Source of the DNA: Pedobacter frigiditerrae
Lineage (GTDB): Bacteria > Bacteroidota > Bacteroidia > Sphingobacteriales > Sphingobacteriaceae
Assembly (NCBI RefSeq): GCF_032678705.1
Contig: NZ_JAVTSS010000002.1
Coordinates: forward strand, 1,674,001 to 1,738,000
DNA length: 64,000 nt
Reading direction: 5' to 3'
The position numbers and the translations under genes are program-made. Below the pieces are notes generated by a model. That model saw only the letters and a program-made list of their open reading frames with translations, did no database searches and was not told where the DNA came from. Shown here piece after piece: positions 14,284 through 32,839 of the stretch; within the stretch, counting starts at the first letter, position 1, and each line of letters opens with the position of its first letter.

Positions 14284-14299
14284 GTGCAACCGATTGCAT
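14284..14299. promoter_or_regulatory. LacI-type operator before the GH115 operon
   Basis: GTGCAACCGATTGCAT: arms TGCAA/TTGCA around CCGA. It sits in the divergent gap between the LacI gene and the GH115 gene, 70 bp before the chosen GH115 start, so it could also control the regulator itself. Confidence 0.75.
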
Positions 14300-25967: not shown

Positions 25968-28900
25968 TTAAAAAGTAACATTTAAACCGGCAAGGAAAGA
26001 TCTTATTGGTGGCGTTGTTGCCCCAATGGTAAGTGCTCTTGAAGAAATATTCCCTGGATTTTGAACCCCTTGATTTCCTGTTCCAGTTGGTTCTGGGTCC
26101 AGGCCGCCTGCTTTTACGTAAGGTGAATAGAGAATGAAAGGGTTTTGTGCAGTTACATAGATTTTAAGTTTTTGCGCACCTAATTTTTTAGCAAGTTTGC
26201 TATCAAATGAGTACCCTACGTTGATACTTCTTACCTTTACAAAACTTGCGTCATAATAACCAAGTGTAGTAGCTGCATCGCTAGTTAATGGTGAACTTAA
26301 TAAACCACCAGCAACATTTGGCGAAGGGAATGCGTTTGTTGGGTTTGTTGGTGTCCAATAATCAACAGCTAACTGGTTTCTTCTGCCATCATTGATAGTT
26401 AAATATCCTGCTAATGGTTGGTGAACTTGACTTATCAGTGTTCCTCCAAAACGAGCATATAAAACAAAAGATAAATCAAAGCCCTTATAGCTAAAACGGT
26501 TAGTCATACCACCTTGAATATCTGCTTGTCCGTTACCAATTACATATTTATCATCGACTGTTAATTTTCCGTCACCATTGTGGTCTTCTAATTTTAATTG
26601 TCCAGGAACAAAGCCATATTTTGCAGCCTCTGCAGCCTCGCTTGTTTGCCAAATGCCTAGTTTTTTATAGTCATAGATTGCCGTTAAAGGTTGACCAACA
26701 AATAGCTGAGCATTAATAACTTGTGTTGTGCTTTGGTTTAAAGCCACTAATTTATTTCTATTAAATGAAAAGTTTAAATCGGTGCTCCAAGAGAAACCTC
26801 CATCTGTTTTAATATTCTGGCTTGATAATGCTACCTCTAAACCTTTATTGGTAATATTGCCAATGTTGGTTAAGTAATTTTCTGATATACCAGAGGTTGG
26901 AGGCAATGGAATTCCATATAGCAATTTATCTGTTTTAGCAGTGTACCAATCAATGCTACCCGTAATGCGATTGTTAAGAATTCCAAAATCTAATCCAATG
27001 TTTGTTGTTTTAGTATATTCCCAATCTAATTTTGGATCAACAATTCTATTTACGTAGTAACCAGTTTGTGAGATATTTCCATAATTGTAACGTACGCCGT
27101 TAGAGGCTACGCCACCTAAAGTACTATAAGCATCAATTGATTGATTTGCTGTAACACCATAACCTGCTCTTAATTTTAAATTTGAGAAAACTTTTACCTC
27201 TTTCATGAACTCTTCATTGGTAATGCTCCATCCTGCGGAAACAGCTGGATATTGTTTCCATTTGTTACCAGCACCTAAACGAGATGAACCATCCCTACGT
27301 CCAGTTAGCGTAATCATGTATTTGTCATTGTAGACATAATTAGCTCTTAACATCATGGAGATTAGCGTAGAGGAAGCTTCACTTCCACCTAAGACAGCAG
27401 CAGGCTCTACAGCAGATAGGCCTAAGTTATAGAATTGAACAAAATCTGCAGTAATTGCTTCCTTGCTTACCGATGTATTGTGGAATTGTTCTTCTTCTAT
27501 GCCAAATAACGCAGTTACAGATACACGGTGTTTTTGTGCAAATGTTTTATCATAAGTAATTAGATTGTCAATAGAATATTTTGTTCCAATTCCATTATTA
27601 ACAGCGGCAATATTACTCATTCCTGGTCTAAAATAACTGTCGGTACCTCTAAACTGATTGCCTTCTTGTTGGTTAAAATCTAAACCAGCATTTAAGCGAT
27701 ATTTTAAGCCATCATAAATGTTTACCTCTCCAAAAAAGCTGGTAAAGGTTCTAAATCTTCTAACTCTATCAACCCATTGATTGTCATTGGTTAAAAGCAT
27801 TAAAGGGTTGTAGGTTGTGTTTTGATCATCCAGGTTTCCTGCAGGTTTTTTATTTACGCTACCATCTAGATTATAAGGTGATGATAGAGGGCTTAATGTT
27901 AGCAATGGGAATACATTCAGGCCAAATTGTGAGCCATTTGTTATACTGTAGTTCGATAAGTTATTAAATCCAATTTTAACACGTTTTCCAATTTTGAAAT
28001 CGCCAGTTGCCTTAAATGATGCACGAGCGAAGTTTTGACTTGGCAAAACAGATGTTTGTTTAAAATATCCACCTCCAACAGAAAATTGGCTTTGTTCGCT
28101 ACCTCCCGAAATGCTTAAATTATTATCGGTGATTAAACCATCTTTATACATCAAATCCTGCCAATCGGTATTTCTACCTGCGGTAATTCCTTGCTTTTCA
28201 TCAGCCAAGTAATCTTGTGTGTAAATAGAATAGTCACGCAAAGCCCTATATTGATTAGCGTCGTACACATTATACTTATCTGTAATTTTAGTTACACCAT
28301 AATAAGAGTTAAAAGAAACTCTGGTGTCGCCTGCTACGCCACGTTTTGTGGTAATTAAAATTACACCGTTTGCGCCACGAGATCCATAAATTGCAGTTGC
28401 AGATGCGTCTTTTAGCACATCTAAACTGGCAATGTCATCTGGGTTGATGTCATTTAATGTTCCATTGTAAGGTATATTGTCGACAACAAATAAAGGATTG
28501 TTGGAAGCATTGATAGAGCGTTCGCCACGAATTCTGATTTGTGCGCCTGCTCCTGGAGCGGTACCAACAGATTGAACTTCTACCCCTGCTAATCTTCCTT
28601 GTAATGCTTGTTGAATGTTTGCTACTGGAACTTCCTTAATAGCTGCCCCGCTCATCGAGACAATAGATCCAGTTACATCTCGGCGTTTTTGAGTTCCGTA
28701 TCCAATAACAACGATCTCATTTAAATTCTTCGAGTCGGGTGTTAAGGTAACATTGTAACTGGTTACGCCACTCTTAATTTCAATTTCTTGAGCTGGATAG
28801 CCAATGTAAGAAATAATTAATGTTTTTTCATCTGGATTTGCACTGATGGTAAAATCGCCATTGGCGTCAGTTACCGTCGCTTTTCCAGAAAGTTTAAGTT

Positions 28901-29051
28901 TAACACCTGCTCCAGGCATCGGCTGATTTTTCTCATCTAATACTTTTCCCTTTAAAACGGTTTGGGCAAAAAGCAAAGATGGTGTTAGGCCTATTAAAAG
29001 TAGTAGCATAGCTAAACTCTTAAACAGCATTTTTTGTCTAGGTTTTTTCAT
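25968..29051 (-). CDS. SusC-like TonB-dependent outer-membrane transporter (xylan locus)
   Basis: A 1027-residue SusC/RagA family porin. Signal peptide 1-29, a carboxypeptidase-regulatory-like domain (about 33-110, KGKVLDEKNQPMPGAGVKL), the SusC signature NEIVVIGYGTQKRRDVTGSI, then the plug (LQGRLAGVEV, LFVVDNIPY, DASATAIYGSRGANGVILITT) and a long beta-barrel ending in ...LAGLNVTF with a terminal Phe. It imports oligosaccharides with energy from TonB. No N-terminal STN domain is seen, so it is not tied to an anti-sigma system. The best operator copy (29183-29198) lies 132 bp before the ATG. Confidence 0.95.
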   Translation of the reverse strand: MKKPRQKMLFKSLAMLLLLIGLTPSLLFAQTVLKGKVLDEKNQPMPGAGVKLKLSGKATVTDANGDFTISANPDEKTLIISYIGYPAQEIEIKSGVTSYNVTLTPDSKNLNEIVVIGYGTQKRRDVTGSIVSMSGAAIKEVPVANIQQALQGRLAGVEVQSVGTAPGAGAQIRIRGERSINASNNPLFVVDNIPYNGTLNDINPDDIASLDVLKDASATAIYGSRGANGVILITTKRGVAGDTRVSFNSYYGVTKITDKYNVYDANQYRALRDYSIYTQDYLADEKQGITAGRNTDWQDLMYKDGLITDNNLSISGGSEQSQFSVGGGYFKQTSVLPSQNFARASFKATGDFKIGKRVKIGFNNLSNYSITNGSQFGLNVFPLLTLSPLSSPYNLDGSVNKKPAGNLDDQNTTYNPLMLLTNDNQWVDRVRRFRTFTSFFGEVNIYDGLKYRLNAGLDFNQQEGNQFRGTDSYFRPGMSNIAAVNNGIGTKYSIDNLITYDKTFAQKHRVSVTALFGIEEEQFHNTSVSKEAITADFVQFYNLGLSAVEPAAVLGGSEASSTLISMMLRANYVYNDKYMITLTGRRDGSSRLGAGNKWKQYPAVSAGWSITNEEFMKEVKVFSNLKLRAGYGVTANQSIDAYSTLGGVASNGVRYNYGNISQTGYYVNRIVDPKLDWEYTKTTNIGLDFGILNNRITGSIDWYTAKTDKLLYGIPLPPTSGISENYLTNIGNITNKGLEVALSSQNIKTDGGFSWSTDLNFSFNRNKLVALNQSTTQVINAQLFVGQPLTAIYDYKKLGIWQTSEAAEAAKYGFVPGQLKLEDHNGDGKLTVDDKYVIGNGQADIQGGMTNRFSYKGFDLSFVLYARFGGTLISQVHQPLAGYLTINDGRRNQLAVDYWTPTNPTNAFPSPNVAGGLLSSPLTSDAATTLGYYDASFVKVRSINVGYSFDSKLAKKLGAQKLKIYVTAQNPFILYSPYVKAGGLDPEPTGTGNQGVQNPGNISSRALTIGATTPPIRSFLAGLNVTF

Positions 29052-29182: not shown

Positions 29183-29198
29183 TTGCAACCGATTGCAT
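29183..29198. promoter_or_regulatory. LacI-type operator before susC
   Basis: TTGCAACCGATTGCAT, differing from the GH115 site only in its first base. Confidence 0.75.
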
Positions 29199-29258: not shown

Positions 29259-29296
29259 TGTGTACCGATTGCATCTAGTATTGAAACCGATTGCTT
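29259..29296. promoter_or_regulatory. Two weaker copies of the LacI-type operator
   Basis: 29281-29296 (TTGAAACCGATTGCTT) matches the susC site at 14 of 16 positions. 29259-29274 (TGTGTACCGATTGCAT) keeps only the right half. Spaced 22 bp apart, they could help cooperative binding. Confidence 0.5.
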
Positions 29297-29521: not shown

Positions 29522-32500
29522 ATGACTCTCAAACTAAATAAGGCTTTCTTGCTATTTTTTTACTCGCTTTTTATTTGCTCGCTAAGTTTCGGAAGCAAAA
29601 AGAATAGCATAGACAATGAAAAAAAAATATTCGGCACAGCTTTAATCAGAAGTAATTACCTCCCTATACCCATAAAATTCTTGCCAAGTGATCTTAACGC
29701 TTATACCCCCGATTCATGCGTTTTGTTTACGCAGCAAAATTTATCTGTAGCTACCGACTCAGTCAGTAAAAAAAAGTATTATTATTTCACAATCAATAAA
29801 AAAGTAATCAGATTAAATGGTTCTTTAGCAAGTGTTGCAGAGGTTCAAACCCTTTTGGAATCCATTCAAAAGCTAGGTTATTTTAAGGAAATTAACCTTT
29901 TATATTTTGATAATAAGCGAAAAATTAATAGGTCTATAACAGTTAATTATCTTGCCAAAAAATTAAAAGAATTAAGATTGGTTTCTCGCAATGATAACTT
30001 GGTAGATGTATTGCTTTATTCGCAGCAAGGCACATTGCTTTCAAAAACATTAAATAGGGTAGATACTGTCTACTCAAAATGGTATAATCTATACAATGTA
30101 AAAAAGATAGGCCAAAGCCTTTATCATCAAAACGGAAGTCAAAAAGCAAGTATTAATTATGAGGATGGCTTAATTAGTGACACACTCACATTTTTTAATA
30201 TGGATGGTGTGGTATCAAGACAATATATTTATAGCAAAGGTAATGTTGTTAAAACATTGGTTGAGCCAATTAGAACCCCAAATTCAACGGCTTCGAATTA
30301 CAAAAAGGCTCTATTAATTGGTATCAATCAATACACCAGACCAGTAGAATATACAGCAAAAGAAATTAATGATAAATTTATAGAAGTGTATAATATCGCT
30401 GGCTCTGTAAACGATGTTAACCTCATTAAGAGTAAACTTATTTCTGGTCAAGGTTTTAATAAGGAGAATGTAAGCTTATTAACCGATGGGCAAGCTACAA
30501 AAGCAGGTATATTACAGGCATTAAACAATTTTGCTGCAAAGCTTTTGCCATCTGATATTGCATTTTTGCATTTTAGTGCTTTGAGCTATGATGCTACTAA
30601 AGTAAAAGATGGTAATGAAGTATTTATTTTAGCTAGTGATTATTATAAGGGTAAAAGTGATACAGTTAATACTTATTGGATAACAAAAAAGGAAATTGAA
30701 CAGGTGTTTGATGCCATTAAAAAGAAAATTGGTAGTAAGGGACAGCTAATAGTTTCTTACGATGCTTGTGGTCAGTCTGCAGATAACGCAAAAGACGAAA
30801 AAAAGAACGAGGTCCAATTTAGGGGTGAGCAAGGTAGCCTATTGTTTTCCTCTAAAAAATACACAGATGTGCCATTTGTTATCTTATCAGGTACCAGTGG
30901 TGATGAATTGAGTATGGAAGCTTCTAAGAATGGAGTTACCTATGGGATTTATTCTTATGCGCTTGCAAACGCACTTGCTTTGCCTTATTCAATAACAGAT
31001 GAGGATTTAATCAACGAAGTTAGATTGAATGTAACTAAACAAAATCCCAACTATTATTCAAATTTCCCGCAATATCTTTTCGAACAAAATCAATCCTCAA
31101 CAGAACAAGGTGTAACACTGGCAGAAATTAAACCTAAGGGCAATGCGCATATCATTTCTGTAGGCATCAGTAAATACCCAAAAACAGGTAAGCTTTCTTT
31201 TCTAAATTGCGTGGCTGATGCAACTTCTTATAATCAATATTTTACTGATCAGTATAAATCTGTATCTGAGACAGGAAATGTTAGCTCTTATTTGCTAACA
31301 GATTCTTTAGCCACCAAAAAAAATATATTAGATGCCATTAACAAAACAATGACATCAAAACCTGAAGATTATTTCGTGTTCAATTTTTCTGGTTACACGG
31401 TTCCTTTAAAAGATTCATTAGGTAAACAACTTACTTATTTCATCCCCTATGGGTTAAAAACCTTAACTGATACAGCTGAGATTAAGAAAAATGGAATATC
31501 ATTAGTGCAATTGAAAGATTTATTACAAATGATACCCGCTAATAATCAACTGTTTATAACAGAGGCTGGAAGTACAACTAATTTTCAAAAAGAATTTATC
31601 AAAAATTTGATAGAAAATAGCCCAACATTAGCGGCGATATCTAATAAAAATAGGGTGTTCATTGTTCCAAAAGGTGCAGGTATGGATAATATGGTTTGTA
31701 ATAATAGAGATATAAAGCATGGACCTTTAAATTATTATATCACCAACTTAACAAGCGATTTAAATATTTATGGTTTGTTTGAAAACGATTTATACATTAA
31801 TGCTTTAAAGTATGCAATTGGAAAAGCGGAAGCCGATTGTGATTACATAAGAAGCGGTTATTTTGATGTGTTCTTTGAAAAGAACTTTATTAGTGATCTG
31901 CAATATTTTATGCCCGAACAAGCCATGCAAATGCGTGGGGCTAAGATTAGAAATCAAACCAAAGAGAAATTAACTAGAGAGAACTCAAAACGTTATGCTT
32001 TGGTTATTGGCACAAATACTTATAAAGCAAGTGCACAGTGGGGTAATTTAAGCAATCCAACTCTCGATGCAAAAGCAATAGCAGATGAATTAGAAAACAA
32101 CTACAATTATAAGGTAACACGTTTAATTGATAAGCCGTTAGATACCATTTATAACAAGGTGCTAATGTTGTCTAAATTGTTAAAGGAGAGTGACCAGTTA
32201 GTGATTTTTGTTGCCGGACATGGAGATTTTGATGATAACTTATTGGATGATGGATTGATTGTGGTTAATGATTCGAAACCTTCCAGCGATGATCCGTTTA
32301 GAAATTCATATATACAATATTCTAAACTATCTAGAATGATAAACAACTTGCCTCCTAACCAGATTTTATTATTGCTTGATGTTTGTTTTGGAGGCACGTT
32401 TGATGACCGTGTAGCTAACAATGTATCAAGAGGTGCAGATAATATGTTCGATATGAATGCTCTTGCTTATGACGAAACCGTATTAACAAATGCTACTAAA

Positions 32501-32839
32501 AGCGGGGAAGGGAAGTACGCAGATTTAAATGCAAATACCTATATCGAAGGTAAACTTGGGAAAAAGACTAGGGTTTATATCACCTCCGGTGGTAAAAAAG
32601 AAGTGCCAGATGGTTATGCAGGCAAACATTCTCCTTTTGCACAAAGATTAATTATGGCACTGCAAGGCAAAGGTGGAGCCAATAATTTACTAACGGCTAA
32701 AAATTTATATCAATTTGTAGAAAAATTGCCATCTGGTCCGCTTTTAGGTAGTTTTGGAGATGACAAGCCAGGGAGTGAGTTTTTATTAATTCCGAATATC
32801 ACGCCACCAGCAAAACCTACAACTGTAGCTAAAAATTAA
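29522..32839 (+). CDS. Secreted triple caspase-like (peptidase C14) protein
   Basis: A 1105-residue exported protein (signal peptide to about 24). Residues 160-250 look like a YwqK/MORN-type beta repeat (LYHQNGSQKASINYEDG). Three caspase-like units follow. Unit 1 (about 258-525) has KKALLIGINQY and Cys416 in SYDACGQS, but Leu354 where the catalytic His is expected. Unit 2 (541-770) has HIISVGISKYP but Tyr625 and Gly683 at the two catalytic places. Unit 3 (822-1090) has YALVIGTNTY, His900 in FVAGHGDFDD and Cys955 in LLLDVCFGGTF, a complete dyad. Cleavage after a basic residue would be expected for the family. Lone gene; partners and substrate unknown. Confidence 0.85.
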   Translation: MTLKLNKAFLLFFYSLFICSLSFGSKKNSIDNEKKIFGTALIRSNYLPIPIKFLPSDLNAYTPDSCVLFTQQNLSVATDSVSKKKYYYFTINKKVIRLNGSLASVAEVQTLLESIQKLGYFKEINLLYFDNKRKINRSITVNYLAKKLKELRLVSRNDNLVDVLLYSQQGTLLSKTLNRVDTVYSKWYNLYNVKKIGQSLYHQNGSQKASINYEDGLISDTLTFFNMDGVVSRQYIYSKGNVVKTLVEPIRTPNSTASNYKKALLIGINQYTRPVEYTAKEINDKFIEVYNIAGSVNDVNLIKSKLISGQGFNKENVSLLTDGQATKAGILQALNNFAAKLLPSDIAFLHFSALSYDATKVKDGNEVFILASDYYKGKSDTVNTYWITKKEIEQVFDAIKKKIGSKGQLIVSYDACGQSADNAKDEKKNEVQFRGEQGSLLFSSKKYTDVPFVILSGTSGDELSMEASKNGVTYGIYSYALANALALPYSITDEDLINEVRLNVTKQNPNYYSNFPQYLFEQNQSSTEQGVTLAEIKPKGNAHIISVGISKYPKTGKLSFLNCVADATSYNQYFTDQYKSVSETGNVSSYLLTDSLATKKNILDAINKTMTSKPEDYFVFNFSGYTVPLKDSLGKQLTYFIPYGLKTLTDTAEIKKNGISLVQLKDLLQMIPANNQLFITEAGSTTNFQKEFIKNLIENSPTLAAISNKNRVFIVPKGAGMDNMVCNNRDIKHGPLNYYITNLTSDLNIYGLFENDLYINALKYAIGKAEADCDYIRSGYFDVFFEKNFISDLQYFMPEQAMQMRGAKIRNQTKEKLTRENSKRYALVIGTNTYKASAQWGNLSNPTLDAKAIADELENNYNYKVTRLIDKPLDTIYNKVLMLSKLLKESDQLVIFVAGHGDFDDNLLDDGLIVVNDSKPSSDDPFRNSYIQYSKLSRMINNLPPNQILLLLDVCFGGTFDDRVANNVSRGADNMFDMNALAYDETVLTNATKSGEGKYADLNANTYIEGKLGKKTRVYITSGGKKEVPDGYAGKHSPFAQRLIMALQGKGGANNLLTAKNLYQFVEKLPSGPLLGSFGDDKPGSEFLLIPNITPPAKPTTVAKN

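Follow-up and report, generated by a model that had tools for sequence, protein, structure and literature searches.

The window (the whole stretch of 64,000 nucleotides of Pedobacter frigiditerrae DNA analysed here) contains an intact caspase gene on the forward strand (29522-32839), the 1105-residue product of which consists of a signal-peptide-like start, an N-terminal domain and three consecutive caspase units, only the last of which is predicted to be active (Table 1).

Table 1. Features of the caspase gene and its product; positions are those of the window.
Feature	Position	Strand	Basis or remark
Signal-peptide-like N-terminus, residues 1-24	29522..29593	+	Charged start, hydrophobic core, ...SFG; judged by eye
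N-terminal domain, residues 25-258	29594..30295	+	Without known family; restricted to Pedobacter members
Caspase unit 1, pseudo, residues 259-537	30296..31132	+	L354 at His place, C416 retained; Pfam C14, HMM, dyad columns
L354 codon (unit 1 His place)	30581..30583	+	
C416 codon (unit 1 Cys place)	30767..30769	+	
Caspase unit 2, pseudo, residues 538-745	31133..31756	+	Y625/G683; HMM, dyad columns, PDB profile
Y625 codon (unit 2 His place)	31394..31396	+	
G683 codon (unit 2 Cys place)	31568..31570	+	Gly invariant, 7/7 aligned relatives
Extension joining unit 2 to unit 3, residues 746-822	31757..31987	+	Alignable in 7/7 family members
Caspase unit 3, predicted active, residues 823-1092	31988..32797	+	H900/C955, DVCFGG motif; Pfam C14, HMM
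H900 codon	32219..32221	+	
C955 codon	32384..32386	+	
Insert of ~23 residues 3' of the C955 codon	32453..32521	+	Window protein only; alignment of three orthologues

The N-terminal domain matched no Pfam or NCBIfam family up to E 10, apart from DUF5626 at 0.11-0.13, and is missing from the relatives L121 and L124. The earlier note had described this region as a YwqK-like sheet, a description that was not borne out: no YwqK-type antitoxin repeat was matched in the Pfam/NCBIfam scan of residues 25-258, with the caveat that short repeats can escape these models. An export-signal-like stretch, recognised by eye, also starts most of the relatives, and from these N-terminal sequences we infer that the window protein is exported. 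It is probably not a lipoprotein, because Cys20 is replaced by Phe in one orthologue, leaving no conserved lipobox Cys. Given the export-signal-like N-terminus and the lack of a recognised T9SS-type C-terminus in the window protein, the periplasm is its likeliest location.

The caspase gene is divergent from a susC gene (25968-29051). Compared with the window gene, susC of L034 (2464-5547) is alike for roughly the first 130 residues; beyond that point it encodes another receptor and has another susD as its neighbour, which looks as though the body of the receptor was exchanged next to a caspase gene that stayed the same. The window has four copies of the motif ACCGATTGCW, against 0.17 expected; three (29188-29197, 29264-29273 and 29286-29295) lie between the divergent susC and caspase genes, and the fourth is at 14289-14298. 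Both orthologous loci share the copies at 29188 and 29264. The first copy, TTGCAACCGATTGCAT, looks like an operator of the LacI family, perhaps one acting on the susC side. Neither an operon partner nor a substrate of the caspase was identified; the downstream SGNH-type esterase gene is common to only two of the three species.

All three units were recovered with an HMM built from 142 single-domain caspases of Bacteroidota, with all multi-unit proteins and their fragments excluded; its seeds, gathered with searches by family or Pfam C14, are a non-random sample, but of different proteins. The matches cover residues 254-521 for unit 1 (E 1.4e-28), 535-745 for unit 2 (4.4e-30) and 815-1068 for unit 3 (2.5e-33; Z = 100,000 in each case), and the His and Cys columns of the model are occupied by L354/C416, Y625/G683 and H900/C955, respectively. 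Thus, the earlier note was right that the chain contains three caspase-like units, that only the third has both His and Cys, and that these six residues lie at the positions it gave; units 1 and 2, decayed in its description, are homologues of caspases by sequence. Scanned alone, units 1 and 3 match Pfam Peptidase_C14 with E-values of 3.8e-16 (59.9 bits) and 2.7e-14 (53.8 bits), against a curated cut-off of 21.4 bits, and unit 2 has no C14 match. The Pfam scan of the full-length chain gave no C14 match at all, probably an effect of the HMMER filters, so that multi-unit caspases may be under-annotated; in the relative L124, three C14 stretches were found in one plain Pfam scan. The PADLOC caspase model matched three stretches of the window protein (E 2.3e-22).

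In the PDB, the profile built from unit 2 and related sequences matched nothing up to E 10 except metacaspases and GSU0716, which is uncharacterised; the matches are weak (best E 0.027, with the place of Y625 falling close to the catalytic His). The corresponding profile of the last unit had the paracaspase MALT1 as its best match (E 2e-6). Models from AlphaFold2 had a pLDDT of 30.7 for the full chain, built with three orthologues only, and 35.5 for unit 2, built with six alignment rows only, both too low for interpretation.

Full-length orthologues were found in only two named genomes, one of P. frigiditerrae (85% identity) and the other a Pedobacter MAG (86-87%), and, counting the genome of the window itself, the full-length gene is present in 3 out of 145 genomes of the genus. 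All six residues at the dyad places are invariant across the three orthologues. The insert in unit 3 of the window protein is absent from both other orthologues; a simple duplication as its origin was rejected, there being no direct repeat. Searches with unit 2 and with the last unit yielded two additional three-unit proteins, L121 (868 aa) and L124 (849 aa), and short two-unit relatives (L122, L123 and L225; 547-567 aa). A second type, represented by L237, L279, L280, L281, L282, L283, L284 and L286, has a pseudo unit followed by an active one; its members are mostly about 1260-1390 aa long (801 aa in L286), with TPR repeats in all three that were scanned. Together with the three Pedobacter proteins, this amounts to 16 intact multi-unit genes in 14 genomes. 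One further two-unit relative, L285 (G895:C3, 3902-5967), is interrupted by a frameshift, either real or an assembly error, that divides it into parts of 434 and 262 aa in different frames.

The order of inactive and active units is fixed. The last unit retains H/C in all 16 intact multi-unit proteins, that is, in every relative checked, whereas none of the 21 upstream units still has a complete dyad; of the 209 further caspase domains in this set, 202 are H/C. The naive 2x2 probability is below 1e-9, with 20 upstream units counted and with the proteins sharing descent; counted as events, there are about four or more upstream dyad losses and none in the last unit. Because the order is fixed and the dyad was lost repeatedly upstream but never in the last unit, chance decay is an unlikely account of the pattern. 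Across relatives, the dyad states of unit 1 are L/C, H/S and H/T, and those of unit 2 are Y/G, F/G and V/G, and no relative, even at 29-35% identity, has an active unit 2. Among TPR-type pseudo units the states are Y/A, Y/V, F/A, K/E, Y/P, S/F and similar. For L225 and L286 the position of the His is not certain, and the Cys is lost. The extension between units 2 and 3 can be aligned in seven members, at 21-23% identity outside Pedobacter. Among distant members, unit 3 is somewhat more similar (37-44% identity) than unit 2 (32-39%), as expected of an enzyme.

The group of last units also has single-unit members (L275, L276, L277 and L278), and in some other relatives TPR or WD40 domains stand ahead of the active unit. 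Because the single-unit members exist, the active unit does not strictly require a partner within its own chain. The window genome encodes several other caspases, all single-unit and with H/C dyads: two adjacent ones with TPR-like repeats (L088, G000:C1:506095-509433), two WD40-like ones (L090 and L091) and one of 679 aa (L089). Another genome from the same family has nine caspase-unit matches on one strand within 20 kb (G288:C96:328924-348438).

In an IQ-TREE phylogeny of 77 units, and likewise with FastTree, the last units fall into a single clade (FastTree 0.999, UFBoot 100) that includes two single-unit caspases. The unit 2 group is likewise a clade (UFBoot 100), and the TPR-type pseudo units are a separate one (UFBoot 99); the union of all pseudo units received 0.88 in one FastTree run but UFBoot 38 and is thus not supported. 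Unit 1 of L121 and L124 groups with single-domain caspases (UFBoot 80), and unit 1 of the Pedobacter proteins lies near the same H/C single-domain caspases, in a position that the tree does not resolve. Internal triplication was rejected, given that units 2 and 3 each group with units of other proteins, in distinct and supported clades, and that unit 1 is near other single-domain caspases. These separate placements indicate that the chain is assembled from different caspase lineages.

Selection was compared across the three Pedobacter species; because dS between them has reached saturation (about 1 to 2), the dN/dS ratios are rough, and the order of dN values is less affected. The N-terminal domain is the least conserved part (dN 0.13-0.19, dN/dS 0.15-0.21). 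Unit 1 has dN 0.04-0.06 and dN/dS 0.05, and unit 3 has dN 0.01-0.08 and dN/dS about 0.04; unit 2 (dN 0.03-0.04, dN/dS about 0.02) is among the most conserved parts, with the extension at residues 746-822 lower still in dN (0.015-0.03; dN/dS about 0.01-0.02). By these estimates, the upstream pseudo units are under strong purifying selection rather than decaying; unit 2, with its low dN and dN/dS, does not appear to be on its way out.

The upstream units also retain acids of the substrate pocket. An Asp matching, by motif, the pocket residue Asp95 of TbMCA2 is present in every upstream and last unit (D298, D566 and D849 in the window protein), an acid two residues ahead of the Cys place is found in all units but one, and another Asp (D345/D616/D891) is likewise retained. 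In unit 3, D849 and D953 match, by motif, the acidic S1 pocket pair. The pocket acids of a metacaspase bind the basic residues of its substrate, and they remain conserved in pseudo-orthocaspases (PMC6426788). A unit that has kept the pocket and lost the dyad could therefore bind without cutting, which favours pseudocaspases acting in cis, although the pocket Asp may be retained for folding, given that D345/D616/D891 is retained as well.

On balance, we consider it somewhat probable that the window gene encodes an exported multi-unit orthocaspase with an active C-terminal unit, in which the pseudocaspase units act in cis by holding a substrate, a partner or part of the chain itself. Unit 3 would be the working cysteine protease and would probably cleave after Arg or Lys; the upstream units would keep a caspase-type peptide groove with an acidic pocket, be unable to cut, and present the bound material to the active unit or restrain it there. 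The suggestion in the earlier note that the degenerate units gate or dock the active one is partly, and indirectly, supported by the fixed pseudo-then-active order, the purifying selection to which units 1 and 2 are subject, and the retained pocket acids. A sharper form of this interpretation, which we regard as rather improbable, is an intramolecular pseudo-heterodimer, with a pseudo unit lying side by side with unit 3 and switching it on, as cFLIP(L) does for caspase-8, but within one chain. Metacaspases act as monomers, which counts against such pairing, as does the existence of close unit 3 relatives without any in-chain partner. Pseudo unit 2 nonetheless always adjoins the active unit across the relatives, and cFLIP(L) itself provides a precedent (PMC11121540).

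An unlikely, yet less remote, alternative is that the upstream units are a scaffold or spacer that distances the active unit from an anchor or binds another protein through surfaces unrelated to the former active site, with no effect on catalysis. Conservation of unit 2 over its whole length, together with the extension, would fit such a role, which the TPR or WD40 domains ahead of the active unit in other relatives could equally fill; but a spacer needs no caspase fold ahead of the same active clade in two architectures, nor does it account for acidic pocket positions being retained while the dyad residues vary freely. That the upstream units are relics of a former chain of three proteases, with the first two decaying, is very improbable: the lineage-dependent loss states of unit 1 are in its favour, but strong purifying selection acts on the inactive units, unit 2 is inactive even in the most distant relatives, and the units are not internal duplicates.

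Unit 3 shares with orthocaspases (Peptidase_C14, PF00656) the p20 core, the His/Cys dyad and the acidic pocket pair and is assigned to them on these sequence features, the difference being that most sampled Bacteroidota caspases have one unit, compared to three in the putatively exported chain of the window. It also aligns with the EACC1-associated caspase family NF047832 (E 9.7e-15), but at 54.6 bits, well under the curated cut-off of 140. Units 1 and 2, with p20 homology and at least one dyad residue replaced, are classified as pseudo-orthocaspases, an established class with YS, YN and YG variants that is rare in Bacteroidetes (10 of 1078; PMC6426788); unit 2 resembles these in being Y/G and in retaining the pocket acids. 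The class is described there as mostly alphaproteobacterial and cyanobacterial, whereas here the pseudo units stand ahead of an active one within a single chain. The paper also notes multiple p20 domains in a few proteins, and no description of the order of these domains was found in the portion consulted. In the open literature, we found no description of bacterial proteins with two caspase domains. Thus, pseudo-orthocaspases themselves are known, and for the fixed pseudo-then-active order in one exported chain no prior description was found.

Active and inactive caspase domains also occur within one system in the VMAP and vWA-MoxR conflict systems, where about 70% of the effector-position caspases of vWA systems are inactive, and inactive caspases in predicted bacterial conflict systems have been proposed as dominant-negative or peptide-binding parts (PMC7159879). 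Those domains reside in separate proteins of NTPase-based systems, unlike the window gene, which has a SusC/D pair and an SGNH-type esterase as neighbours. In caspase-8 and cFLIP(L), too, an inactive homologue is coupled to an active caspase; because these animal, cytosolic proteins are two separate chains rather than a single exported bacterial one, the comparison drawn in the earlier note is an analogy.

We tentatively propose, as a possibility we consider doubtful, that Bacteroidota retain an ancient class of exported chains combining pseudocaspase and caspase in cis, in which the active 'CFGG' clade would have been joined, perhaps repeatedly, to non-duplicate inactive caspases that then became a dedicated regulator or substrate reader, a one-chain counterpart of cFLIP(L)-caspase-8. 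With an inactive unit, its probable client and a single-unit contrast all available, the role of a pseudocaspase would be directly testable in an exported bacterial protein.
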